From positions 1 through 64,000 of the forward strand of contig NZ_JARJNS010000009.1 of assembly GCF_030143245.1 (NCBI RefSeq): a stretch of DNA of 64,000 nucleotides, read 5' to 3'. The translations under genes and the position numbers were made by a program. Each line of letters begins with the position of its first letter. Within the stretch, counting starts at the first letter, position 1. Below the pieces are notes generated by a model. That model made no database searches. It was not told the DNA's origin and saw only the letters and a program-made list of their open reading frames with translations. Source of the DNA: Rhabdaerophilum sp. SD176 (lineage in GTDB: Bacteria > Pseudomonadota > Alphaproteobacteria > Rhizobiales > Beijerinckiaceae). Positions 38,001-56,259 of the stretch are shown here, piece after piece.

Positions 38001-38624
38001 TTGTCACGCACGCCCACACCACAACGAGCCAACGCAATAGCCCTCCTGGAAGGTGGGGGGCTGATCCGCCTTCGGGATCTGCAGCGCGCGGGAGTAGGCC
38101 CAGAGACCCTGTCGCGTCTGGTTCGCGAGGGTGTAGCGACCCGGCCGGCGAGGGGCCTATACCAGCTGGCCGGTGCAGCTATCGATGCGCGCCATACGCT
38201 TGCAGAAGCCTCGGCGCTGACATCCAAAGCCGTCGTGTGCCTGACCTCGGCACTCCAGTTTCACGAGCTGACGCTGCAGATGCCGTCCGCAGTCTGGATG
38301 GCCATCGACCGCGCCGCCTGGAAGCCGCGTATTGAGTACCCACGCGTCCGCTTCGTCAGGTTCGGCACCAAAGCCCTATCAGAGGGGGTCGAACACCATA
38401 CCATTGAGGGCGTCAGCATTGCCGTGTTTAACCCCGCCAAGACGATTGTCGATTGCTTCCGATACCGGAACAAGATCGGTCTCGACGTGGCCCTTGAAGG
38501 CCTCAGAGAAGGCCTGAGGAGCCGGAAGGTCACACCTGACCAGATCTGGCAATTTGCGCGACAGGCCCGAATCTGGTCGGTGATCAAACCTTATCTGGAA
38601 GCAATGGTGGCAGATGGCGCCTGA
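38001..38624 (+). CDS. abiEi: AbiEi-type antitoxin (type IV TA)
   Basis: This 207-aa protein starts at a TTG, the first start after an in-frame stop. It has an N-terminal winged HTH (GLIRLRDLQRAGVGPETLSRLVREGVA, RPARGLYQLAG) and a COG5340-type antitoxin body (CLTSALQFHELT, FNPAKTIVDCFRYRNKIGLDVALEGL). It acts both as DNA-binding autorepressor and antagonist of the AbiEii toxin. It overlaps abiEii by 11 bp. Confidence 0.9.
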   Translation: MSRTPTPQRANAIALLEGGGLIRLRDLQRAGVGPETLSRLVREGVATRPARGLYQLAGAAIDARHTLAEASALTSKAVVCLTSALQFHELTLQMPSAVWMAIDRAAWKPRIEYPRVRFVRFGTKALSEGVEHHTIEGVSIAVFNPAKTIVDCFRYRNKIGLDVALEGLREGLRSRKVTPDQIWQFARQARIWSVIKPYLEAMVADGA

Positions 38625-39510
38625 ACTCAAAAACGTCGGCGCCTCTGTCCGAGCACGACTACTCGAGCGTGCCCGGAAAGAGGGATCGGATTTTCAGATC
38701 CTTCTGACACGCTATGCGCTCGAGCGCCTGCTCTACCGCCTCAGCTTATCAGGCGAACGAGAGCGCTTCATCCTCAAGGGCGCCATGCTGTTCATCACGT
38801 GGCTGACCGATCCATTCCGTCCGACGCGCGATCTTGATCTGCTCGGGCAGGGCGATCCCGATGTTGATACAATCACCTCGCGGTTTCGAGGGATATTCAG
38901 CACAGATGTTCCTGATGATGGTGTGAAGTTCGATATCGCAGGAATGCTCGTCGAGCCAATCCGAGATCAGGCTGACTATGGGGGTGTTCGGGTCAAAACA
39001 TCCGCCTCGATCGCTGGCGCGAAAGTGCCGATCCAGATCGACATTGGGTTCGGCGATGCCATTACTCCAGGGCCGATAGACATCGACTATCCCGCGCTGC
39101 TGGACGCGCCATCACCAAGATTGAGGGCGTACCCGCCGGAAACCGTCGTAGCCGAGAAATTCGAGGCGCTCGTATCAATCGGCATCACAAACAGCCGAAT
39201 GAAGGACTTCTACGATCTCTGGATGATCGCGCAGACGTTTCAGTTCGAGCGCAAGATTCTGAGCACGGCGCTGAGGCGGACATTCGAGCGGCGGAACACG
39301 CCGTGGCCGCCGGTCGACCCTACCGGTTTGACCGATGCGTTTTCGCTCGAAAAAGATAGAATGTGGCGCGCTTTTCTGAAAAGGGACCGCTTGGGTGCGG
39401 CACCAGAAGACATGTCGCGCGTCGTGGCTGATCTTCGAACGTTTTTCAAACCAATGATTGAGGAAAATACCAGTTATGAGCGCTGGCCAGCCGGAGGACC
39501 TTGGTCATAG
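38614..39510 (+). CDS. abiEii: AbiEii nucleotidyltransferase toxin
   Basis: This 298-aa protein has the nucleotidyltransferase core of AbiEii: FILKGAMLFITWL, then RPTRDLDLLGQGDP (DxD metal pair) and a downstream acidic residue in the PIQIDIGFGD strand, followed by PPETVVAEKFEALV and RMKDFYDLWMI. AbiEii toxins block growth by nucleotidyl transfer (tRNA pyrimidine addition has been shown for MenT relatives) and give abortive phage infection or plasmid stabilisation. It is paired with AbiEi. Confidence 0.9.
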   Translation: MAPELKNVGASVRARLLERARKEGSDFQILLTRYALERLLYRLSLSGERERFILKGAMLFITWLTDPFRPTRDLDLLGQGDPDVDTITSRFRGIFSTDVPDDGVKFDIAGMLVEPIRDQADYGGVRVKTSASIAGAKVPIQIDIGFGDAITPGPIDIDYPALLDAPSPRLRAYPPETVVAEKFEALVSIGITNSRMKDFYDLWMIAQTFQFERKILSTALRRTFERRNTPWPPVDPTGLTDAFSLEKDRMWRAFLKRDRLGAAPEDMSRVVADLRTFFKPMIEENTSYERWPAGGPWS

Positions 39511-41551: not shown

Positions 41552-44521
41552 TCAGGCGGCGGTGTAGGTAGCGGGCAGGATGAGCGCCTTGCGCGCTGTT
41601 GTCTGCGCCGCGCGATCCCAGAGGAAATCGCCGGAGAAGGCGATATGCTCCCACCCGACCGGCGAGGTATGAGCCACCAGCTGGTCCGGCGCGGCCTGGC
41701 CGGTTGCGGCGAGATGGGCCAGAGCGTCGCTCATGTAGGTCGCATTCCAATAGACGATCGCCGCGATTACGAGATTGAGGCCGGAGGCCCGATAGAGCTG
41801 CGCCTCGTGGCTGCGGTCGATGATCCGCCCCTGCCGGAATGTGCAGATGGCCTGGGTCAGGGCATGGCGCTGTTCGCTCTTGTTCAGCCCGGCCTGACAA
41901 CGTCGGCGCAGGGAGGGATTTTCCAGCCAGTCGAGCATGAACAGGGTGCGCTCGATCTTGCCGATTTCCTGAAGGGCGACGTCGATCTGGTTCTTTCTCT
42001 CGAAGGCCGCGAGTTTTCTGAGCATCGCGGAGGGCAGGGCGTGACCCGAGCGGAGCGACGCAACCAGACGCAGGATATCGTCCCAGTGCGCGGCGATGAT
42101 ATCGGCACGGATACGTTTGCCGAGCAGGGGTTGCAGGGTCGGATAGGTCGAAGGGCTTTCCAGCGGCGCAAGACGGCGGTCGGGGAAGTCGCGCAGGCGC
42201 GGGCAGAACCGGAACCCGAGCAGCGCGCAAAGCGCGAAGACATGATCGGTCGCACCGCCCGTGTCGGTGTAATGCTCGAGGATGGAAAGCGATGCGCCAT
42301 GATGCAGGAGCCCGTCGAGCACATAGGGCGCTTCATGGGTCGCTGCCGAAAGCACGGTGACATGGAACGGGGCATGCCGATCGGAGACATGGGTATAGAA
42401 TGAGAAGCCGGGATCAGCGCCATAACGGGCATTGATCTCGCCGCCCGGTGCCACGCGCTTGCCGCCCCGGAAGAACTGCCCATCCGAACTCGAGGTGGTT
42501 CCCTCGCCCCAAGCGGCTGCGATCGGCAGTTTGTGGTGGGCGTCGATGAGGATGGCGAGGGCCGCGCGATAGGTTTCCTCGCGTATATAGGCATCGCGGG
42601 TCCAGATCAGCTGATCGCGCGTGACGCCCTGGCTTGAAGCCGCCATGCGGGCAAGGCCCAGATTGGTCGCATCGGCAAGGATCGCGGCCAGCAGCGCATT
42701 GTCATGGGGAGAGGGAGCGCCCGTGCGCAGATTGGTGAAGGCAGAGAGGAATCCGGTCTGCCGGGCGACTTCATGCAGGAGTTCCGTGATGCGGATGCGC
42801 GGCATCATCGCGTCGAGGCGCTGTGCGAGCTGCTCCGCTTCCGGGATCGGCGTTGCCCGGATCGGGGAGATCGACAGGCGCCCGTCAATCAGCGCGACGC
42901 CCTCGAGTTGCCCTCGGGCAAGACGCCGCCCAAAGCGCTTCAGCCGGTCGTCGAGTTCGTGACCACGTTCGGCCAGCCAGCGTTCCGGGTCGCTCGGCAA
43001 ACCGAGCTTTCCAGCGATGGATGCCGCCTCCGCCGAGGGGACCAGGTAGGCGTCGAAGCGCCGGTAGGATGCGGAACGCTCGACATAGACATCCCCCGAA
43101 CGCAGCTTGTTGCGCAAATGCGCAAGGACTGCCGTTTCGTAAAGTCGGCGGCTGGTCCGCCCATCAGGCTGGACAACGATTTTGCGCCATTCCTTCCGGA
43201 AGGGCATCGGTGCATCCGCCGGCACCTCACGACGCCCGGATCGATAGAGCGTCCTCAGGGTCGCGATAGCCGCGAGGGTGCGGGAGTCGCTTTTGCCCGC
43301 TCTGAACTCCAGGGCTTCGATCAGGGCAGGCGCGAACTTGCGCAACGTCTGATACCGATCTGCAGCGAGAACGAGAGGATCTTCTCCCGTGGAAGCGGCA
43401 ATGGCGACAATCTCGGGCCGGGCGCGCAAAAGGGTTGCCCATCCGATGTTGTTGTCGAGCACGGTGAAGGGATCGGCGTCGGTTTCGACCGCGCTGGCCA
43501 GAGCGTCGATCGTGCGTTGGAAGAGACCCATCAGCCGGGCGACATCCCGGGCGGTCCCGGCATAGGTCCTTGCTTGTCGTGCCTTGGCACGCGTGAACAG
43601 CCCGCCGATCAGCTTGTCCGCCATCACGAGAGCGTCGTCGATAAGCTGGGCCTCTGCGTCGGCGAGATAAGCGACGAGCATCGCCCGTCGGCGCAGCGGC
43701 GTATAGCGTTCGATCAGATAGGCCGGCGACAGGCGGGCTTCCCGGGCGAACTGCCGTGCCCGGTCAGGATGCACCGTAGCGGCTCTTGCCGCTGGCAGAT
43801 CGAGATCCCGAACGAACGCCAGGCGCTCTAGCAGCAGACTGATATGGTCGGGCCTGGCGGCATCCGGCAAGGTCTTGAGCCAGGAAAGGCGCGACATGCC
43901 GAGCACCCTGTCCTTGACAATCAGGGCATCGACAGCAGCGGATTGTATTTCCGAGAGTGGCACGACGAGCGCCTGCATGGCGGCTTTGCGCGCGCGTGCA
44001 CGACCGGCCAACCCCGCCCGCTCGATCGTCGAGAGGGCCGGCAGCAGGATATGGTTGGCACGCAGCGCTGTCATAATTCCTGTCGCGATCGGCAGCTCAC
44101 GATCCGTACCGCGTGCCGCTTCGGCTGCGGCATCGATCATCATCGGGATATCTCCGCGCACGGCGAGCCGAAGCCCCAGAGCACTGGCCAGATCGCGGGC
44201 ATGATCCGTCATGGTCTGCGCCCGCGCCGCGTAGTCGGTGAAGGCCGATGCGGGAAGATCGAGGCCCTCGGAAAGAAACGAGACCAGCTCGACCGGAACG
44301 GCAAACCCACCCTGAAGCCAGCCCGCAAGCGTCACACCGGGATGACGCAGCAGAGCGAGTTGCACAGCAACGCCAAGACGGTTGGCATCGTCACGCCGGT
44401 CCCTGATTAGGGTGAGATCGGCGGCCTCGAATGTGTAGAGCCGGACCAGTTCGTCTCGCTCTTCCGGGATATGAACGAGCCTGCGGCGCTCAGCATCCGT
44501 CAGCAGTCGGTTCCTGTCCAT
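41552..44521 (-). CDS. tnpA: Tn3-family transposase
   Basis: This 989-aa DDE transposase starts at MDRNRLLTDAERRRLVHIP, preceded by a strong GAGGAGA; an upstream in-frame ATG lies in the res region. Family marks: YTFEAADLTLIRDRRDDANRLGVAVQLALLRHPG-like N-domain (split here as read), first catalytic Asp in SSDGQFFRGGK, second in FYTHVSDRHAPFHVTVL and Glu in LNKSEQRHALTQAICTF. It catalyses replicative transposition. Length is normal (960-1020) with no frameshift. Confidence 0.96.
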   Translation of the reverse strand: MDRNRLLTDAERRRLVHIPEERDELVRLYTFEAADLTLIRDRRDDANRLGVAVQLALLRHPGVTLAGWLQGGFAVPVELVSFLSEGLDLPASAFTDYAARAQTMTDHARDLASALGLRLAVRGDIPMMIDAAAEAARGTDRELPIATGIMTALRANHILLPALSTIERAGLAGRARARKAAMQALVVPLSEIQSAAVDALIVKDRVLGMSRLSWLKTLPDAARPDHISLLLERLAFVRDLDLPAARAATVHPDRARQFAREARLSPAYLIERYTPLRRRAMLVAYLADAEAQLIDDALVMADKLIGGLFTRAKARQARTYAGTARDVARLMGLFQRTIDALASAVETDADPFTVLDNNIGWATLLRARPEIVAIAASTGEDPLVLAADRYQTLRKFAPALIEALEFRAGKSDSRTLAAIATLRTLYRSGRREVPADAPMPFRKEWRKIVVQPDGRTSRRLYETAVLAHLRNKLRSGDVYVERSASYRRFDAYLVPSAEAASIAGKLGLPSDPERWLAERGHELDDRLKRFGRRLARGQLEGVALIDGRLSISPIRATPIPEAEQLAQRLDAMMPRIRITELLHEVARQTGFLSAFTNLRTGAPSPHDNALLAAILADATNLGLARMAASSQGVTRDQLIWTRDAYIREETYRAALAILIDAHHKLPIAAAWGEGTTSSSDGQFFRGGKRVAPGGEINARYGADPGFSFYTHVSDRHAPFHVTVLSAATHEAPYVLDGLLHHGASLSILEHYTDTGGATDHVFALCALLGFRFCPRLRDFPDRRLAPLESPSTYPTLQPLLGKRIRADIIAAHWDDILRLVASLRSGHALPSAMLRKLAAFERKNQIDVALQEIGKIERTLFMLDWLENPSLRRRCQAGLNKSEQRHALTQAICTFRQGRIIDRSHEAQLYRASGLNLVIAAIVYWNATYMSDALAHLAATGQAAPDQLVAHTSPVGWEHIAFSGDFLWDRAAQTTARKALILPATYTAA

Positions 44522-44667
44522 TCCGGTCTCCTCGCCCGTCCACAAAAGGGCGTTCTGCGCTATGGACGGCAAGACATAAAGAGACATAGTTTATGGACTG
44601 ATTTGCCGATGTCGGCTGGATACGCGCAGTCGCGTCCACGGAACGGCCGGTTGGGAGACAGCAAACA
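44522..44667. other. res-like resolution region between tnpA and tnpR
   Basis: The 146-bp divergent spacer has the size of a Tn3 res site (about 120 bp with three subsites). GTCCA (44538-44542) and TGGAC (44563-44567) form a dyad spanning 30 bp, consistent with one subsite; further GACATA-like half-sites lie at 44573 and 44583. It also must carry the promoters of both genes. Confidence 0.65.
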
Positions 44668-45237
44668 ATGGGCGATATCCTGGGCTATGCGCGCGTCTCG
44701 ACCGGCGATCAGGATATTGCCGGCCAGACCCTGCGCCTCGAACAAGCCGGTGCGATCCGGGTCTTCTCCGATATCCGCTCCGGCAAGAGCATGGATCGCC
44801 CGGGGCTCACCGCCCTGATCGACTTTGCCCGCAAGGGCGATACACTCGCCATCGTTCGCCTCGACCGGCTGGGCCGTTCGCTCGCCGAACTCCTCTCCAC
44901 CGTCGCCATGCTGAAAGAGCGGGGCATTGCCCTGCTGAGCCTTGAGGAAAAGATCGATACCTCTTCCGCCGCAGGCGAACTCGTCTTCCACGTCTTCGGC
45001 GCCATCGCGCATTTCGAGCGAAGGCTCATCTCCGAACGGACCCGTGACGGCATCGCGGCGGCAAGGGCAAAGGGCAAGCGCCCAGGCCGCCAGCCCCTCG
45101 ATCAGGCCAAAGTGGATGCCGCCATGACGCTCATTGCTGCCGGCTCCTCCCCCTCGGAGGCCGCGCGTCAGCTTGGTTTGGGACGCTCGACCCTCTATCG
45201 GGAAATGCGAAGGCTCGGTATCACAAGACCGGGCTGA
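44668..45237 (+). CDS. tnpR: Serine resolvase of Tn3-family transposon
   Basis: This 189-aa small serine recombinase has the catalytic start ILGYARVSTGDQD (Ser about 10), the RLDRLGRSLAELL block, ERRLISERTRDGIAAARAKG (long E-helix) and a C-terminal HTH (SSPSEAARQLGLGRSTLYREM). It resolves cointegrates at res and usually represses tnpA and itself. The 3' end overlaps the convergent glycosyltransferase gene by 17 bp. Confidence 0.95.
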   Translation: MGDILGYARVSTGDQDIAGQTLRLEQAGAIRVFSDIRSGKSMDRPGLTALIDFARKGDTLAIVRLDRLGRSLAELLSTVAMLKERGIALLSLEEKIDTSSAAGELVFHVFGAIAHFERRLISERTRDGIAAARAKGKRPGRQPLDQAKVDAAMTLIAAGSSPSEAARQLGLGRSTLYREMRRLGITRPG

Positions 45238-48298: not shown

Positions 48299-49045
48299 CT
48301 AAGGGATTGTCACGTTGGCCGCAGCTATCGTGGTTGATGGTGAGGCATCGAACCATAGATGCCAAACGGTTATGATGCCTGGATTGTTGGCCGGCGGGGA
48401 TGTATGTGTATAGAGGAATGACCGGCCATGTTTCGACTGCGCTGCGTCGCAGCCGTTGACGGGATGGGCGGTAAGCCCGGTCTGTACGGCGTAGCTGGCT
48501 GCATACGCGGCCTGCGCCAGATAGGGCTGAAGGCGGGCCGAAATTTTCGTCCCATCCCGCACATAGGCAATCATAAACGCCTCACGACCACCCCAGCCAT
48601 ACTGTCCGTCGAGGAAGCGGACTAGGCCCTGGCTGCAATAGAGATGCTCACCGCGGGTCGCGTCAATGATCTTGGCTTCGGCGGTTAATGGAAAGCGGGT
48701 GGCGCGGCCCGATAGATGAATCGACAAGTCTGGCCGCTTCTCCAGATGCGTGCCATTGTAGTTCAAACTCTCGGCTCCACGTACCACGCTGCTGACGAGC
48801 TGGCGCCATAGTTGATCCTCTTCGATCATGCTGTTGAGCCGCGCCACCAAGATTGAGGTGACTTCTGCCTCGTCGCCGGTCGCGACCGTGCGGGCGTGAT
48901 TGGCGCGGACGTCTTGGAACGCCTGTACTATACCTTGGGCAATGATCTGGAGATAGATCTCATCAATCGCAGGCAGGGGCAAGGCAAGCCCGCGGGTGAG
49001 CTCTGCGATCTGGTCAGGGCGAGGGGAGAGTGCCAAGGAGCTCAT
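48299..49045 (-). CDS. PD-(D/E)XK-like nuclease partner of the methyltransferase
   Basis: This 248-aa protein contains a nuclease-type core: an acidic residue in VTSILVARLNSMIEED, then KRPDLSIHLSGRATRFPLTAEAKIID-type strands at about 118-143, i.e. PD followed about 15-17 residues later by EAK, the PD-(D/E)XK motif (positions read as RPD and AEAKII). An LNYNG segment and QGLVRFLDGQYGWGGREAFM follow. The start at 49045 overlaps the methyltransferase stop (ATGA); longer in-frame starts lie inside that gene. It is the third gene of the operon and probably the cutting subunit. No signal peptide or membrane segment. Confidence 0.75.
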   Translation of the reverse strand: MSSLALSPRPDQIAELTRGLALPLPAIDEIYLQIIAQGIVQAFQDVRANHARTVATGDEAEVTSILVARLNSMIEEDQLWRQLVSSVVRGAESLNYNGTHLEKRPDLSIHLSGRATRFPLTAEAKIIDATRGEHLYCSQGLVRFLDGQYGWGGREAFMIAYVRDGTKISARLQPYLAQAAYAASYAVQTGLTAHPVNGCDAAQSKHGRSFLYTHTSPPANNPGIITVWHLWFDASPSTTIAAANVTIP

Positions 49046-52000
49046 CCGCGACGGCGCCCCTTGAGGAAGTCGAGGCGTGACCAGATAAGATGTTGAGCCA
49101 GCAGCTTCGCCTGAGTATTGCTCCAGTACCGGTTCTGGGCGAGACGGCCGACCAGCAATGCGCCACATTCGTCCTCTACCACCATCTCGGTAGCAGCTGA
49201 GACATCCGCGACTGCGAGCAGCGCTTCCCAGTCCTTTGCGACCGCAGTCGAAGCGCTCTCGCCTGTTTGCAGGACAAAGCCCATCCAGGGTGAGGTCGAA
49301 TGGCTTTCGATCATACGAACGCTGAGCGACTTGCCGAAGCGGTCCGTCCAAGGCGACAGCTCGCTGTGAAGTAGCGTACAGAACTCCTTTGTGACTTCAG
49401 GCTTGGGGCGGGCTTGAGCGGCCTTCTTGTTTTCGGCAAACGGCAAATTGTAGCTGAGCGTATCCGTGATGATCTGCAAATCGCCTGTGCTGAGACCATA
49501 GAGGCTCGCGACCCAGCGATCGACTTCGTCCCAAGCCAACGGGGACTGGTATACCGCTTCGAAGAGCTGCATGATTTCTGCCCATCGAACTGGTCCGAGC
49601 TGACGGAAGTCTGGAACCGGGATGCGGTCGAGTGCGGCCTTTTCAATGACTTCACGCTCGAAGCCGAATTCTCCGCTGGTCGTGAGCGCCAGCCAAAGTG
49701 TGAATTTGCTGCCGAACACGAGGGCGAGGTAGCGCACCAGAATATCCGCATTCTCAAAGCCCGTTGGACAGTAGCCATAAAAAGTTTCGTTGTAGACGGC
49801 CGGCCCGACGGCAATGCCGACGCGGATTCGGCCGCGATCGGCAGGCGGCGACTTGTGGACGATCGCGATCGGTCCCTCGAACAAATTCGCGTCGCGTAGT
49901 CGGTGAACACGATCCTGCTGGAATTTCTCTAACCTACTCTCGTCGATCACCAGTCGGTCCAAGGAGGCAACCGTGACATCGGGCAAGCCGCGAAGATGCC
50001 CGGCATCTTTGCCGGGCGGGGGGGATCCATCCTCGCGGGGACCACTGCTGTCGCGAAGCTGCTGATAGCCCTGCCCCGAACCGGCCATGCGCCCGCGATT
50101 CGATACGCCGATCGCCTCTCGCCAGAACGCTTCGACGGTAGGGAAGCCCTTGCCGCGAATGCGCTCGACCAAGCCGAGGTCGGACTTCGTCCCGCGAAAT
50201 AGGATCTTCAGGATATCGGGAGTTGCGATCATGTGCTGGGTCGCAATGATCTCTGCCGCATGGGCGTCGATGCGCATTGTACCGGCAGCGTTGAGCTCCG
50301 TCTCCAGACGAGGGCTGAGCAGCCGGAAGCCGGCACCGGCGGCGGGCACGCGGTTGGTTGCGATCAGCAGGCAAAAGGGCGCCGAGATTTCCGGCCAGAC
50401 CTTAGTCTGACGCAACTCGACGCCGTTGATCACTGAGGTGATGTCGAGCGCCTGGAATAGCATCCGGCGTGCATCGGCCATGCCGTCGCCTTGCTGGAAA
50501 AGCAGGCGCGCGTGGAGCGCGAAAGCGATCTGGCCGCCCGACTTAGCCCATTCCATAGCACGCCAGACAAAAGGGATGTCGAGCCCTTCATTGGGGAGCG
50601 GCGGCGCGAGCCTTGCGCTTAAGCGCTCGCTCGCGATTGCCGAAACAGCCTTCAGAACCAGTGACCAGTCGGCAAGCTTTGTACCGGTCGACCAAGGTGG
50701 GTTGCCGACAACCACGTCGTAGCGGCCACGATGTTCGTCACCTACCAGTGGCCCGAGACTGCCTAAGCTGGAACCGGGCTCTTCGTATTCGCTCGAGACT
50801 AGGTGGAGCACCTTCCCGCGAAGATCATCGAAGCGCAGGTTGTCGACGGGCTTCGGCTCGGGGTCGAGTTCGATCGAGACGAGATAGAGCGCCAGCGCGG
50901 CGAAGCGCAACGCCTCCTCGTTGATGTCGAAGCCCGTGATCTGCTCATAGAGGATCTCGCGCAGGCGCTTTGTATCGGGCCGCTTGCCATCAGCCCGCCA
51001 ACACGCCGCTACGAGTTCGCGAAAGGCGGTCAGAAGGAAAACGCCAGCGCCCGCCGCGGGATCGAGGATGCGCGCCGTCGCGCTCGATCCGTCACGTTCG
51101 AGTGCGCGCAAAGAAGCGCGGACGAGCAGATCAGCGATCGGCCGCGGCGTATAGAAACCGCCTTCCTTACGTTGTTTCTCGGGAGCGTGGCGGCGCAGGT
51201 AGAGCTCGTAGGCTTGGCTTAGGACGCCGACCGGGATGTGGGCAAAATCGAGCCCATCCCAGCGCTCCGTCCAGCCGAGGAAGAGCTGGCCCCCTTCCGC
51301 ACGCATCATGATGTTGCCCAGGACGTGATAGGCGTTCGTCGGCAATGTCTCAAAGATCTGCTTCGATAGCGGTAGCAGGTCGCCGTTGAAGGTCCTGTCG
51401 AGCCAGGCGTTCGCCTTCCGCGCATTTCCTACGTTGGCAAACAGCGCGGCGGTGGTAGCGGGCGCTGCCATATCTTCCGGCAAGAGATTGCGGTCACCGA
51501 GGAAGCGCGCGAACAATGCTCGTCCGACTAGCGAGATTGCGTCGCCATGCCCGACGTCCATTCGGATCAACTGATTGATCGCGTCGGTTAGGAGGTTAAG
51601 CACCACATTGGAGATCCAACCTTGCCGAGTGCGCGCCGCGCGCGGACGCCGATTTGCCAGGTGCGGGAACACACCCCTGTTAGGCGTGCCCGAACTGCCC
51701 AGCGGCACACGGGCCTGGGCCGGGGTCTTGCGATCAAGGGCAATCGCGTAGACTTCCAGTTGGCCTGGCGCGACGATGCCAAGATACGGCGCATCGCCGC
51801 GCATCGCGAGTAGGCGGCGGAGCCGATGGATATCGTCCTCGCCCGCAATCCGGACGGCATCAACGAGGAAGATCAGCGGGGCCTCTTGCCATTCGTACAC
51901 AGCGCCCACGGTATTGAGGACTGATCCACCCTCTCGCCGTGCATTGGTCAGGGTCGCATAGGGCAGCAGTTCGGGAGCCTCGGCGTCAAGCAGGTGGAGT

Positions 52001-52050
52001 GCCTGCCGATCGGCGCCGAACGGCTCAAGCCAAGCGAGCCAATCAGTCAT
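49042..52050 (-). CDS. Large gamma-class N6-adenine DNA methyltransferase (Eco57I/PglX-like)
   Basis: This 1002-aa protein should modify adenine in DNA. Order: an alpha/beta N-terminal domain (about 1-115, PLIFLVDAVR, YLGIVAPGQLEVYAI) lacking clear nuclease residues; a helical region (about 140-290); the methyltransferase core with motif X KEGGFYTPRPIADLLV, motif I ILDPAAGAGVFLLTA (about 330), ITGFDINEEALRFAALAL, and catalytic motif IV YDVVVGNPPWST (about 440); then a long C-terminal specificity region (about 640-1002). Size and motif order resemble type IIG/PglX enzymes. It lies 27 bp after the HTH gene and overlaps the nuclease gene. Confidence 0.88.
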   Translation of the reverse strand: MTDWLAWLEPFGADRQALHLLDAEAPELLPYATLTNARREGGSVLNTVGAVYEWQEAPLIFLVDAVRIAGEDDIHRLRRLLAMRGDAPYLGIVAPGQLEVYAIALDRKTPAQARVPLGSSGTPNRGVFPHLANRRPRAARTRQGWISNVVLNLLTDAINQLIRMDVGHGDAISLVGRALFARFLGDRNLLPEDMAAPATTAALFANVGNARKANAWLDRTFNGDLLPLSKQIFETLPTNAYHVLGNIMMRAEGGQLFLGWTERWDGLDFAHIPVGVLSQAYELYLRRHAPEKQRKEGGFYTPRPIADLLVRASLRALERDGSSATARILDPAAGAGVFLLTAFRELVAACWRADGKRPDTKRLREILYEQITGFDINEEALRFAALALYLVSIELDPEPKPVDNLRFDDLRGKVLHLVSSEYEEPGSSLGSLGPLVGDEHRGRYDVVVGNPPWSTGTKLADWSLVLKAVSAIASERLSARLAPPLPNEGLDIPFVWRAMEWAKSGGQIAFALHARLLFQQGDGMADARRMLFQALDITSVINGVELRQTKVWPEISAPFCLLIATNRVPAAGAGFRLLSPRLETELNAAGTMRIDAHAAEIIATQHMIATPDILKILFRGTKSDLGLVERIRGKGFPTVEAFWREAIGVSNRGRMAGSGQGYQQLRDSSGPREDGSPPPGKDAGHLRGLPDVTVASLDRLVIDESRLEKFQQDRVHRLRDANLFEGPIAIVHKSPPADRGRIRVGIAVGPAVYNETFYGYCPTGFENADILVRYLALVFGSKFTLWLALTTSGEFGFEREVIEKAALDRIPVPDFRQLGPVRWAEIMQLFEAVYQSPLAWDEVDRWVASLYGLSTGDLQIITDTLSYNLPFAENKKAAQARPKPEVTKEFCTLLHSELSPWTDRFGKSLSVRMIESHSTSPWMGFVLQTGESASTAVAKDWEALLAVADVSAATEMVVEDECGALLVGRLAQNRYWSNTQAKLLAQHLIWSRLDFLKGRRRG

Positions 52051-52077
52051 AGCCCGGTCCAGTACGGGTCCGCCAAC

Positions 52078-52389
52078 TCATGACTGGAGGTCCAAATTGG
52101 CTTGGCGGTCTCCACCAAACTGGCCACGCTGAGTTGCGCCGCGGGGCTTCCGGGTCGGCGCGACCTTAGCGATCGCGCTTCGATAATCGACTGCGCACGC
52201 CGCCATCTCAGCCACTAGTACTGCGACAAGCGCGATATGTTGAGGAACGTCGCCCCGGCTGGCATAGTTGGTGATCGAGTTCGGGTTCATGCCGATGAGG
52301 TGAGCAAAACCGCGCACGCTGAAGCCTGCGCGCTCAAGTTCCCCGAGGAATTCAGTGTAAGGCATGGCCCGCTTCATCCCACACAGCAT
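52078..52389 (-). CDS. Small HTH (XRE-like) controller of the methyltransferase-nuclease operon
   Basis: This protein of about 103 aa has an N-terminal HTH (EFLGELERAGFSVRGFAHLIGMNPNSITNYASRG). It is the first gene of the operon. In-frame Met codons at 52377 (MKRAMPYT) and 52365 are alternative starts. Its promoter contains several dyads centred on GTGTGC/GCACAC, as expected for an autoregulated controller. The C-terminal tail is basic. Confidence 0.8.
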   Translation of the reverse strand: MLCGMKRAMPYTEFLGELERAGFSVRGFAHLIGMNPNSITNYASRGDVPQHIALVAVLVAEMAACAVDYRSAIAKVAPTRKPRGATQRGQFGGDRQANLDLQS

Positions 52390-52392
52390 TTA

Positions 52393-52446
52393 ATGTGCGC
52401 CTGCACATGGTTTGATGTGTTATAGCACACGAATTGATGTGTGCAA
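52393..52446 (-). promoter_or_regulatory. Promoter and nested dyads of the HTH-methyltransferase-nuclease operon
   Basis: On the minus strand a -35 TTGCAC (52446-52441) and -10 TATAAC (52424-52419) are separated by 16 bp. Dyads: GCACAC-N8-GTGTGC (52425-52444) covering the spacer and ATGTGC-N4-GCACAT (52393-52408) downstream of the start. A third, TGTG-N6-CACA (52417-52430), overlaps the -10. The shared half-site GTGTGC/ATGTGC suggests two or three operator copies for one repressor. Confidence 0.75.
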
Positions 52447-52565: not shown

Positions 52566-53852
52566 TCATAGCGGAATCCCCATCCCGCCCCGCATGGCCT
52601 TCAGCTTGGTGCCGATCAGCGCCATAAGGATGGGCCCGACGGAGAATTGCCCCTCGCGCTTCTTCTCGGTCAGCGCACGCAAATAACCGCCGGGGAAGCG
52701 CACCTCATCGCCCTTTTGCAGGATCGCCGCGATGACGATCGAGGCATCGGCCTGCCCCATGGTTTCCACGGCATCGCGCCAGGCATCCGGCGAAATCCCG
52801 AGCATCGCTCGCACCAGCTCCGCCGCCTTCAGGAACTCGGCCCAGCTTGGGGGTGAAGCCCCCTGCCCTTCCCGACCGTGGATGTAATCGAGGATATCCG
52901 GGCACGCCTCGAGCACCATCGGCAATGGCGTGCCGAGGCTCGGGCGGGTTGCGGCCGTCTCCCCTTCCCTCCCCTGCTCCGCTTGAACCGAACCATGGGT
53001 CTCAGGCTCGGGCCGGCGCTCACCGCCCCTGTCTTTCTCGAAAGCAGGTTCAGATTCATGAAGTTCTGGTTTTGAATTCTGTTTGTGGCGCTCGGAATGG
53101 GACTCATTGGCGCTTGAATCTGCGAAATTTGTGAAGAGTTCCAGATGCTTCAGGATCTCAGTGGAAAAGCCTTCGAGATCGTCCGCAATCACCTCCAGAT
53201 CAGCGTGGCTGGCGGAGCGCTTGAGACGCCCGACAAGCGCCAGATACTGCCCGTGCAGGCCCTGCCAATCGCCCGGAAGCGCTTCTTCCATGCCGAGCAG
53301 GATCATTTTGGTGATGTCGCGGCGCGCCAGCGTGATGCGCTCCCGGGCGAGCCTCTGCGCCCGACGCTCGGCCTGAACCTCGGCCGCGAGTGCCTGAAAT
53401 TCCTCGGCGCGCGCGACGAGCGGCGTCAGCTCGAACCCGAAGGCGAGGCTCACTTCGCCATCCATCCCGCGGCGGGCGTAGCGCTTACCGTTGGGGCTGT
53501 CACGGCGGACGACGATACCGGCTTCCACGAGAGTCGCGAGATGTCGCCGGAGAGTTGCCGGGGCGATCCCATGGGCGCGGCTGCAGAGTTTTTCGTTCGA
53601 GGGGAAGACGATCAGCGGATCGCCTGCCGTCAACGCCGTCTCCTGATGGAAAGACAACAGCGCATGGAGCACGGCAATCGCCCGGTCCGGCAGGCCGAGC
53701 TTGCCCTTGGCCTCCGTAATGGCCTGAAAGATTTTCCACTTGTGGACGGTCTTTTCCGGTTCAACCGCCCTCGCCTGCTGCTGCGTGGCGATCAGGCCAA
53801 GCGACAGCGTTCGCCGCCCGAAGGGCGTCGTCACCAATCCCTGTTGCGTCAT
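52566..53852 (-). CDS. repC: Replication initiator RepC of repABC plasmid
   Basis: This 428-aa initiator has the RepC start (FGRRTLSLGLIATQQQA) and a winged-helix DNA-binding N-domain (KLGLPDRAIAVLHALLSFHQ, FPSNEKLCSRAHGIAPATLRRHLATLVEAGIVVRRDSPNGKRYA split over two strands). The C-domain after a hydrophilic linker (about 245-300) contains DILDYIHGREG and SWAEFLKAAELVRAMLGISPDAW. In this plasmid type oriV lies inside repC; the more AT-rich linker region (about 53040-53150) is the candidate. It is the last gene of repABC. Confidence 0.95.
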   Translation of the reverse strand: MTQQGLVTTPFGRRTLSLGLIATQQQARAVEPEKTVHKWKIFQAITEAKGKLGLPDRAIAVLHALLSFHQETALTAGDPLIVFPSNEKLCSRAHGIAPATLRRHLATLVEAGIVVRRDSPNGKRYARRGMDGEVSLAFGFELTPLVARAEEFQALAAEVQAERRAQRLARERITLARRDITKMILLGMEEALPGDWQGLHGQYLALVGRLKRSASHADLEVIADDLEGFSTEILKHLELFTNFADSSANESHSERHKQNSKPELHESEPAFEKDRGGERRPEPETHGSVQAEQGREGETAATRPSLGTPLPMVLEACPDILDYIHGREGQGASPPSWAEFLKAAELVRAMLGISPDAWRDAVETMGQADASIVIAAILQKGDEVRFPGGYLRALTEKKREGQFSVGPILMALIGTKLKAMRGGMGIPL

Positions 53853-54040: not shown

Positions 54041-55048
54041 TCACTGGTTCCGCTTCTCGTACTCCTCAAAAAGCGAGGCGAGGCGTGAGCCTAGAAAAGT
54101 CGCGAAGTCTTTCGGCACCGATGGGTCGAACCGTAGGATGGTTCGACCGCTGTCTTCGGCCAGGAAGGCAAGCCCCCTCCCCTCGCCGCTTGACCAGATT
54201 GGTTGCGGCTGAAGCGGTTTTTCCGGCTTTGAGATTGCAGCCAGAACCCTCAGAAACCGGGTATCTGAATCGCGGCTGAGATCGGGATCGGCAAGAACAC
54301 GCTGAACCACGGCCAGCGCCTTTCCCTGTTTGAGACGATCCGAAAGATCCATCCAACGGCGTCGGCCCGCCTTTGGTGCAGGTCCGATTGCTCGGGCAAT
54401 CGGTTCGGGCACCGCCCTTGCGACGGAGATGAGCTTGGAGAGTTCCGTCTTATCGGTCGACAATGCCGCCATGATCAACTGGCGATCAGTTCCTCGATCT
54501 TCGAGAGATTTCGCGAACATCGCCTTCTCGATGAAGGACAGATCTTTTCGCGCCGAGTTCTCCAATCCCTGGGCGAGGACAAGAGCCTCATCATCGAATG
54601 CGCGAATAACGGCCTTGAGCGACAGCCCCAGTTCCTTCGCAGCCCGCCAGCGGCGATGCCCGTAGGCAAGCTGAAAATATCCGTCGCGAACAGGATGCGG
54701 GCGCAGCAGGACCGGAACTTCCTGTCCGTGCTCCCGCAGGGACGCCTTGAGCTGTTCAAACGCCTCGTCATCCGCCTGGTCAAAGCGGTCCAGAACGAAG
54801 GACGGCTCGACCCGCGCAGGATCGATCTCGACGACGTTCTGTCCCTTCGCCAGAGCCTCTTTCAGGGCCCGCGCTTCATCTTCGATCTTGTCCAGCGTCA
54901 GCCCCATCGTTCGTACGGGCCCCGCCAGCGTTCGCTGCGGCGGCTGCGCGGGTGGAGCCTGTTCAACAGGAGCAGCCGCGGCGGGAGCAGAGTTGGCCGC
55001 GGCCAACTGTTCCTCGATCAGGGACTTAATGAGATTGCGGCGCGTCAT
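54041..55048 (-). CDS. repB: Partition protein RepB (ParB family)
   Basis: This 335-aa centromere-binding CTPase-type protein has the ParB N-domain motifs EQLKASLREHGQEVPVLLRP, FQLAYGHRRWRAAKELG (GHRR arginine patch) and ENSARKDLSFIEKAMF, then an HTH region around LIMAALSTDKTELSKLISVA. It starts at MTRRNLIKSLI, overlapping the repA stop (ATGA). A parS copy lies inside its 5' coding sequence (QLAAANS codons). Confidence 0.95.
   Translation of the reverse strand: MTRRNLIKSLIEEQLAAANSAPAAAAPVEQAPPAQPPQRTLAGPVRTMGLTLDKIEDEARALKEALAKGQNVVEIDPARVEPSFVLDRFDQADDEAFEQLKASLREHGQEVPVLLRPHPVRDGYFQLAYGHRRWRAAKELGLSLKAVIRAFDDEALVLAQGLENSARKDLSFIEKAMFAKSLEDRGTDRQLIMAALSTDKTELSKLISVARAVPEPIARAIGPAPKAGRRRWMDLSDRLKQGKALAVVQRVLADPDLSRDSDTRFLRVLAAISKPEKPLQPQPIWSSGEGRGLAFLAEDSGRTILRFDPSVPKDFATFLGSRLASLFEEYEKRNQ
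54992..55007. promoter_or_regulatory. parS site 1, inside repB
   Basis: The 16-bp perfect palindrome GTTGGCCGCGGCCAAC fits the repABC parS consensus GTTNNNNGCNNNNAAC. It is identical to the copy at 56396-56411. It sits 41-56 bp into the repB coding region. Confidence 0.88.
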
Positions 55049-56259
55049 GCATCTCTCCCCCACGCTTTGCGGATGAGCCCAAGAATCTCGCCATTCACTG
55101 CGTCGAGCGATTCAATCGCACGATCATAAGTCGCACGCCCAACTGCGCCGCGATCAAGTTCATAGAGGGATTGTTTGGTGAGCCCAGCATCAGCGATGGC
55201 AGTGGATTTCCATACCGTCGCCGCCAGCACATCATCTCCAAAGAGCCCGCGAAGCAGCGCCACGACCTGCGACTGCGGCCCATCATGAGGTTCATGCCGG
55301 GTGACAACATAGCGAATGAAATCGTGGTGCAGATCACCGCCTGCATTGCGGACAACGGACATCAAGTCGGCCGTCATCAGCAGAAACTGCGACATCGAAG
55401 CGACGTCGACCATCTGCGGATGAATTGTCACGAGCAGCGAGGTAGCGGCACACAGCGCTCCGAGCGTCAAGTAGCCGAGCTGGGGCGGGCAATCGATGAT
55501 TACCACGTCATAATCAGCCTCGACTTCGTTCAGCGCCTTGCCAACGCGCTGGAAGAACAGTCCGCCAGCCGGACGACCACCTTCAAGGAGAGCCCGGGGT
55601 GTATCATGCTCAAACTCCATCAACTCGAGATTGCCGGGGATCAGATCGAGGCCGTCGAAATAGGTCTTGCGAATGCACGACTTTGCAGAACGACGGGCAT
55701 CGTCGTAGCGGATAGCTCCGTAAAGCGTGTCCCCTTCCGCAAGATCGAATTCCGGCTGAAGCCCCAGCATGGCCGTCATCGAGGCCTGGGGATCAAGGTC
55801 CAGAGCCAAAACCCGATATCCGCTCAATGCAAGAAATTGTGCCAGATAAAGCGCTGTTGTTGTTTTGGCTGAGCCGCCTTTGAAGTTGACGCAGGCGATT
55901 GTCTGAAGCCGCTCACCGGGCTTGCGGTGAGGCAGAATAACGTCGGCATCACGAGGCTTAGCATTGGCGATGTAGCGCCTAAGCACGTTGATTTGTGCCA
56001 GCGTATAGGAGCGCCGGCCAGTCAGGGAAACCTCCGGCGTCGGCCCAATTCCGTCAATCGAAAGCTGGCGGAGATAACCGTCAGACACATTCAGCAGCCG
56101 CGCAGCCTCGCCGGAGGTAAACGACCTCAGAGATTTCCTGCTATCTGGTGGAAAGAGTCGCGACCCGAGCGACTGCAACTGCCCAGAGAGCAGCTTTGCA
56201 TGCGCCGCAATTTTGGCGTCTGATGCGACCCGACCGGAACGAAGCGAAGCCGTGTCCAC
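55045..56259 (-). CDS. repA: Partition ATPase RepA (ParA family)
   Basis: This 404-aa ATPase starts at a GTG (56259) with GGAG ten bases upstream. An N-terminal winged HTH (FTSGEAARLLNVSDGYLRQLSIDG) precedes the deviant Walker A motif FKGGSAKTTTALYLAQFLA (about 130), Walker B-like VVIIDCPPQLGYLTLGAL and ALDLDPQASMTAMLG. It partitions the plasmid with RepB and autoregulates the operon. It is the first gene of repABC. Confidence 0.95.
   Translation of the reverse strand: MDTASLRSGRVASDAKIAAHAKLLSGQLQSLGSRLFPPDSRKSLRSFTSGEAARLLNVSDGYLRQLSIDGIGPTPEVSLTGRRSYTLAQINVLRRYIANAKPRDADVILPHRKPGERLQTIACVNFKGGSAKTTTALYLAQFLALSGYRVLALDLDPQASMTAMLGLQPEFDLAEGDTLYGAIRYDDARRSAKSCIRKTYFDGLDLIPGNLELMEFEHDTPRALLEGGRPAGGLFFQRVGKALNEVEADYDVVIIDCPPQLGYLTLGALCAATSLLVTIHPQMVDVASMSQFLLMTADLMSVVRNAGGDLHHDFIRYVVTRHEPHDGPQSQVVALLRGLFGDDVLAATVWKSTAIADAGLTKQSLYELDRGAVGRATYDRAIESLDAVNGEILGLIRKAWGRDA

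Follow-up and report, generated by a model that had tools for sequence, protein, structure and literature searches.

Type IIG restriction enzymes carry nuclease and methylase fused in one chain, and in bacteriophage exclusion (BREX) systems the methylase PglX stands beside PglZ, BrxC and other genes. Type II systems with a controller protein, such as Esp1396I, pair a small helix-turn-helix (HTH) regulator and tandem palindromic operators with a separate methylase and nuclease. In the DnmA-YeeB-YeeC system of Bacillus subtilis (PMC9973331), an MmeI-like methylase without a nuclease motif of its own is followed by conserved genes for a helicase of superfamily II and a protein of the T5orf172/GIY-YIG type. 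Here we describe a three-gene operon in a 64,000-nucleotide stretch of Rhabdaerophilum sp. SD176 (contig NZ_JARJNS010000009.1, positions 1 to 64,000; hereafter the window), which resembles each of these systems in part. Based on the open reading frames (ORFs) of the window, its minus-strand genes encode, in order of transcription, an HTH regulator, a gamma-class N6-adenine DNA methylase of 1002 amino acids (49042..52050; identified by Pfam, a structural model and structure matches) and a predicted PD-(D/E)XK nuclease of 248 amino acids (48299..49045). The regulator and methylase genes are separated by 27 bp and the start of the nuclease gene overlaps the methylase stop by 4 bp (ATGA), an arrangement present exactly where the initial annotation of the window had placed it. 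The nuclease is a real, widespread and so far unnamed partner of the large adenine methylase, and the pair is probably an overlooked form of restriction-modification, since methylase and nuclease stay together in distantly related bacteria. Taking the three genes together, we consider the operon a probable autoregulated restriction-modification system in which an MmeI/PglX-like adenine methylase works with its nuclease as a separate subunit.

The 248-residue protein had been proposed to be a PD-(D/E)XK nuclease, and both the alignment of its relatives and its predicted structure bear this out. Residues E59, P105, D106, E123 and K125 are invariant in all 33 rows of the nuclease alignment (A1), from which the partial or broken copies of loci L015, L026, L030, L034 and L036 were removed before aligning. 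The catalytic core D106 ... E123-x-K125 is encoded at 48671..48730 (minus strand) and E59 at 48869-48871. The predicted structure (predicted local distance difference test, pLDDT, 88.8; predicted template modelling score, pTM, 0.86) places E59 at the opening of helix 59-76, D106 immediately before strand 107-111, and E123 and K125 within strand 120-127, which is followed by helix 133-145 and then strand 155-162. A set check of the predicted fold found the nuclease core, and prediction and alignment together show a modelled PD-(D/E)XK alpha-beta-beta-beta-alpha-beta core carrying the E, D and ExK residues. Among solved structures, VIA gave the restriction enzyme OkrAI as the best match of the model (Z 8.6, 148 residues aligned), and the absence of a nuclease fold is ruled out by this match and the confident model. 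Further matches at Z 5-6, a range below the value of 8 under which VIA cautions that a match possibly reflects just a common arrangement of elements, are titled mostly as restriction or defence proteins (McrC, SwaI, NucC, the BspD6I small subunit and DrdV residues 2-128), Rep15 being one of the exceptions. Searches of Pfam, NCBIfam, PADLOC and PHROGs returned zero matches for the window nuclease, and its profile matched among PDB sequences only HSP90-type proteins (E 0.33 or worse), which were judged to be chance matches. The gene is annotated as 'hypothetical protein' in five plasmid records, and relatives of the L042 nuclease are annotated as 'Fis family transcriptional regulator' in several plasmids.

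A total of 38 methylase loci were gathered by a methylase-only search in which the nuclease was not part of the query. These are labelled as Alphaproteobacteria, other Pseudomonadota, Acidobacteriota, Chloroflexota and Myxococcota, and many are metagenome bins. A nuclease gene lies directly downstream of the methylase in 37 of the 38 loci, the remaining contig (L038) stopping within the methylase. The exact 4-bp overlap is found in 26 of the 36 methylase-nuclease pairs measured in genome loci, and five of the ten pairs without it are broken or truncated (L015, L030, L033, L034 and L036). In a survey of the class, the nuclease query (E up to 0.001) and the methylase query (E up to 1e-30) each hit the identical 5 of 289 genomes, and in a survey of the order (methylase E up to 1e-20) the two queries separately hit the identical 3 of 249 genomes, with the window genome included in both cases. 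A phylum survey using the methylase query only found 6 of 398 genomes (E up to 1e-25). Because only the best few candidates per genome were scored in these surveys (2-3 for the methylase and up to 9-11 for the nuclease), some genomes may have been missed. A chance neighbourhood was considered and is ruled out by the downstream nuclease in 37 of the 38 loci together with the agreement of the two separate-query surveys.

The association extends to more divergent methylases. All 12 distant methylases fetched for this purpose, comprising L040-L044 (five of 42 plasmid records) and L062-L068 (seven survey genomes), have a fitting small downstream gene, as do L088-L090; six of the 42 plasmid records were opened, and the nuclease status applies to the opened ones. 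Identity to the window methylase is 22-34% for the 14 distant methylases measured (L040, L042-L044, L062-L068 and L088-L090), each of which is followed by a gene of 210-260 amino acids with a D..ExK and a Y..G..RF-like motif, and in L041 the methylase gene is split and a nuclease relative is present. The nuclease pattern was matched in 50 of 56 family loci. The six misses comprise L015 and L026, which leave the contig with a partial nuclease match, L033 and L034, which have a broken methylase and a nuclease match, L041, where a nuclease match is present, and L038, where the contig is cut. Among 12 more distant methylases the partner motif was found in none, eight of them having sufficient downstream sequence, and an N-terminal D..ExK pattern occurs in seven of these 12 versus four of the 56 family proteins; two of these four are incomplete (L018 and L044), and in the other two (L042 and L067) the match lies close to the N-terminal end. 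The initial annotation had asked whether methylase homologues keep both partners. They keep the nuclease, as the 37 of 38 loci, the surveys and the distant relatives attest, whereas the HTH partner is often replaced or unrecognisable, so that the conserved core consists of two genes.

The window methylase matches the Pfam families N6_Mtase (1.6e-19), Eco57I (4.5e-10) and MmeI_Mtase (1.6e-7), that is, methylase domains only above the cut-off. Its NPPW catalytic motif (residues 450-453; 50692..50703, minus strand) is invariant in a 31-row alignment (A2) from which eight of the 38 loci were excluded (L015, L024, L029, L030, L033, L034, L036 and L038). The predicted structure (pLDDT 84.2) matches CamA (Z 28.4), MmeI (Z 24.8, residues 144-861), BrxX (Z 23.8) and DrdV (Z 23.3), with residues 1-142 and those beyond approximately 860-896 barely covered by structure matches. 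Its C-terminal region matches the target-recognition part of related enzymes through approximately residue 860, which suggests that this region recognises DNA. The N-terminal domain (residues 1-143; 51622..52050, minus strand) has an alpha-beta-beta-alpha-beta-beta arrangement in the model; scanned alone against Pfam it had zero matches, and a pattern search of residues 1-210 of the protein found no D..ExK. The domain may plausibly be a decayed nuclease domain. The description of a 1002-residue methylase with an intact NPPW core and no clear nuclease residues, as given in the initial annotation, therefore holds for the window protein.

Like the type IIG/IIL enzymes MmeI, DrdV and BpuSI, the window methylase is a gamma-class adenine enzyme with a C-terminal target-recognition region. 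Unlike them, it has its nuclease outside the methylase chain, in a separate PD-(D/E)XK gene, and an N-terminal domain without D..ExK, and we did not class it as type IIG because the defining fused nuclease was not found. PADLOC matches the window methylase to REase_MTase_IIG models (1.5e-25), and its relatives match such models as well. The model PDLC03623 'REase_MTase_IIG' matches the L042 methylase (L042 3977-7075) nearly end to end (2.8e-250), despite the L042 nuclease being a separate gene (L042 7072-7785). This label, and the Fis label of the nuclease relatives, are probable misannotations, and tools that label these methylases as single-chain type IIG overlook the nuclease. The fold is also similar to that of BREX PglX/BrxX, as the BrxX match above indicates. 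The incomplete gene tables of six annotated plasmid neighbourhoods name no other BREX gene within 4-5 kb, and a Pfam scan of 10 neighbours in the window revealed none either, the search being confined to these neighbourhoods; a BREX fragment was rejected because no other BREX genes are named in the six annotated neighbourhoods. With DnmA-YeeB-YeeC (PMC9973331), the operon shares an MmeI-like methylase lacking its own nuclease motif and conserved downstream partnership, but it has a single PD-(D/E)XK nuclease and no helicase.

Evolutionary distances of methylase and nuclease are closely correlated across 29 rows (r 0.95), and those of HTH protein and methylase across 16 rows (0.885). Of the sub-regions tried, methylase region 801-1002 keeps the strongest partial correlation with the nuclease distances (0.64) once the methylase core is accounted for, which is suggestive of contact between methylase and nuclease; common inheritance and comparable rates would push this value up as well. 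The region includes the C-terminal extension (residues 862-1002; 49045..49467, minus strand), which lies past the end of most structure matches and is a candidate nuclease-docking region. These comparisons bear on the view that the operon is a conventional type II system, in which the 248-residue nuclease would read the same site alone, acting independently of the methylase and as a homodimer in the manner of OkrAI or EcoRV. The OkrAI match, a protein size within range (the OkrAI chain has 194 residues and EcoRV chains have approximately 230-245) and an HTH regulator with tandem operators in the layout of controller-protein systems are all in keeping with it. One view of type IIP evolution (PMC6158711) holds that once split from the methylase a nuclease can mutate beyond recognition; here, in contrast, the nuclease (mean distance 0.508) is approximately as conserved as methylase region 601-800 (0.516), the same partner is kept over the family, and the methylase resembles MmeI, BrxX and DrdV over >550 residues. 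We regard a conventional type II system as unlikely on balance.

A different reading of the same proteins would combine a methylation-dependent or damage-type nuclease with an orphan epigenetic methylase in a regulatory or competition module rather than a system for self/non-self restriction. The VIA matches to McrC (Z 6.2) and NucC (Z 5.6) lend it some plausibility, as does DnmA, which is MmeI-like, lacks a nuclease and acts as an orphan in B. subtilis (PMC9973331). However, a nuclease cutting the product of the methylase in its own operon would damage the host, and the one-to-one pairing and the absent cis nuclease motif favour a cognate pair, so that we consider such a module very improbable.

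As an autoregulated restriction-modification system with the nuclease as a separate subunit, the operon might work as follows. The HTH protein would bind the tandem operators before its own gene and set the level of the operon, as the conservation of these operators suggests. The methylase, which has the fold and motifs of the MmeI/CamA/PglX-like gamma class, would mark a specific site, and the translationally coupled last gene would supply the nuclease whose fold and residues are indicated by prediction and alignment. This nuclease would most likely dock on the methylase, with the C-terminal extension as a possible docking site, and would cut DNA whose site is unmarked, a restriction activity that we infer from sequence. 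Such a system could have originated from a fused type IIG enzyme that lost its cis nuclease and came to use one in trans. A published model (PMC6158711) derives separate type II pairs from a duplicated fused gene followed by domain loss, and a family with a fused-type methylase fold and a separate unnamed nuclease could be a living example of such a split, making ideas of this kind testable. We recognised no described split system or clamp-linked restriction system in the literature, of which REBASE and most subscription papers were outside reach, so that an earlier naming is possible.

Several observations weigh against this interpretation. Foldseek alone matched the nuclease weakly, DrdV being the best hit (E 0.039). 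With VIA, Z 8 was reached by only 2 of 1000 chains, and a single entry, OkrAI, is listed at this value or above; intact nuclease residues would not by themselves prove cleavage. Docking would be based on linkage and correlated distances, both of which could also arise from shared inheritance alone. The nuclease and N-terminal D..ExK patterns were picked after the sequences had been seen, and the counts obtained with them, over rows that are related to one another, serve as description. Whether the two queries of the class survey agree exactly is a matter of threshold: with a methylase cut-off of 1e-6 they no longer do, 17 of 289 genomes being hit, 12 of them without a nuclease-profile match. 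Three of these 12 (G185, G056 and G095) have a divergent nuclease gene, detected by motif and missed by the profile, and the remaining nine appear to have different methylases. A tree built from 66 methylase cores requires two changes for its 55 nuclease-linked rows, as L090 sits on a long branch apart from the main clade; a single origin of the nuclease-linked methylases is possible. Finally, at 17 of 19 further loci neither an XRE-like nor a MerR-like relative of the regulator was seen, with L027 and L034 having <1 kb of upstream sequence.

The XRE-like regulator gene of the window (52078..52365, minus strand) encodes 95 amino acids from an MPY start assigned from homologues. Read from the first ATG, the ORF spans 52078-52389 (103 amino acids); as homologues start with MPY, translation probably begins at 52365 instead of 52389. 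The window protein has no clear match in Pfam, NCBIfam or PDB sequences. XRE-like relatives precede the methylase in 20 of the 38 loci, and the equivalent gene in L039 is annotated as 'XRE family transcriptional regulator'; the alignment of these proteins (A3) comprises 18 rows, L007, L008 and L029 being excluded. Other loci have MerR-like proteins, annotated as such in L042 and with Pfam MerR_1 just under the cut-off. Visual inspection suggested a further HTH-like ORF in L068 and ORFs resembling ribbon-helix-helix proteins in L064 and L090.

The XRE-like gene is preceded by one to three inverted repeats of the form CACAT-N6-ATGTG or variants thereof, spaced at 22 bp where there are multiple units. 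A pattern search found the repeat in 17 of 22 loci, where mononucleotide shuffles would give 0.13. Correcting the start recovers four of the five missed loci (L004, L005, L015 and L039), giving 21 of 22 loci and leaving L037 without repeats. L008, in which the HTH gene is frameshifted, likewise matches once its start is corrected. At least two units are present in 16 of the 21 loci with a repeat. In the window the units lie on the minus strand at 52426..52441 (CACATCAATTCGTGTG, within the longer repeat GCACAC-N8-GTGTGC at 52425-52444), at 52404..52419 (CACATCAAACCATGTG, 22 bp from the first) and at 52380..52397 (degenerate CACATTAAATGCTGTGTG, 22 bp from the second), and no promoter was found at the operator by consensus scanning. 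An autoregulating controller would be expected to have putative operators arranged in this way. The initial annotation had noted that neither type IIG enzymes nor BREX have the minimal three-gene layout. The layout is in itself not new, as regulator, methylase and nuclease also occur together in controller-protein type II systems and the operator points to them; the conservation across genomes of an operon with a separate nuclease is supported. The operon differs from those systems in its methylase of MmeI/PglX size, in the order regulator-methylase-nuclease within a single operon where nuclease and methylase genes are coupled, and in the exchangeability of the regulator class within the family. 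By eye, the MerR-like genes are preceded by other palindromes, of GGGTA..TACCC type in L042 (upstream of 3327), L062 (upstream of 1516) and L067 (upstream of 6100), and a long inverted repeat precedes the MerR-like regulator of L041 (upstream of 4529).

The two regulator classes share a feature at their C-termini. The window HTH protein carries the C-terminal hexapeptide QANLDL (52087..52104, minus strand), which is putatively sliding-clamp-binding-like. In most XRE-like proteins the C-terminus is QxxLDL or a near variant, the Q being invariant in all 18 aligned rows, and MerR-like tails comprise QLDLF (perfect in L062 and L067), QFDLF, QxxLPF, QxxLPL, QxxLAL and QxxLQF. A loose clamp pattern is matched within the last 60 residues of 19 of 21 XRE-like and 11 of 12 MerR-like regulators, being absent from L021 and L026 (XRE-like) and L088 (MerR-like). 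By comparison, shuffled tails match this pattern in 2-21% of cases depending on the protein, and among 482 other ORFs of the loci, a greedy ORF set rather than curated genes, 25 match the loose and 8 the strict pattern. XRE-like and MerR-like regulators have no clear similarity to each other, and a distant relation of their HTH parts is possible given the best E of 0.036. Given the relatedness of the rows and the choice of the pattern in hindsight, the clamp-like tail is a lead only. The published clamp-binding consensus is QL[S/D]LF, more generally QxxLF, and QTSMAF of Pol III epsilon is a weak binder (PMC12309361).

It is rather doubtful that the HTH proteins are replication-coupled adaptors, whose tail would tether the system to the sliding clamp behind the fork. 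If they were, such a tether could provide replication-coupled maintenance methylation, to which DNMT1-PCNA is a counterpart, or restriction steered to replicating foreign DNA, and working tails would represent a new link from replication to self-marking. After each round of replication, one of the two daughter duplexes may lack the mark of an MmeI-like methylase. DnmA, itself MmeI-like and without a nuclease motif, is reported to be enriched close to the replisome; the authors relate this to nascent DNA in which its non-palindromic site is unmethylated (PMC9973331).

The operon lies directly downstream of repC, and the minus-strand genes directly upstream of it encode RepC (52566-53852), RepB (54041-55063) and a RepA-like ATPase (55045-56259), identified by Pfam. 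Based on these repABC-type replication and partition genes, the window is a repABC plasmid or carries the backbone of one. This setting, and the occurrence of relatives on plasmids, would fit a module that serves mainly plasmid stability (addiction) and is built from restriction-modification parts, with defence secondary. However, long chromosomal contigs also carry relatives, for instance a Sphingobium sp. SYK-6 record of 4.2 Mb (L017), as does a viral contig that runs from tail genes to an integrase, and an addiction mechanism is compatible with restriction-modification, the reading we prefer; a primary role in plasmid stability is extremely unlikely in our estimation. On the viral contig (IMG/VR, L070 392-13870), genes for head closure and tail are followed by an HTH-methylase-nuclease operon that is 80-85% identical to that of the window and, after it, by the integrase, so that a temperate phage seems to have taken up the system as cargo. 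Among INPHARED phages there were zero matches for nuclease or methylase.

Elsewhere in the window, a gene pair at 38001-39510 has an AbiEii Pfam match in its second gene (9.7e-45), the first being AbiEi-like by position alone, and a Tn3-family transposase and a serine resolvase are found at 41552-45237. The ORF list also includes, by eye, a metal-resistance-like stretch at 2861-34143 with two P-type ATPases, multicopper oxidases and a resistance-nodulation-division (RND) pump with its adaptor.

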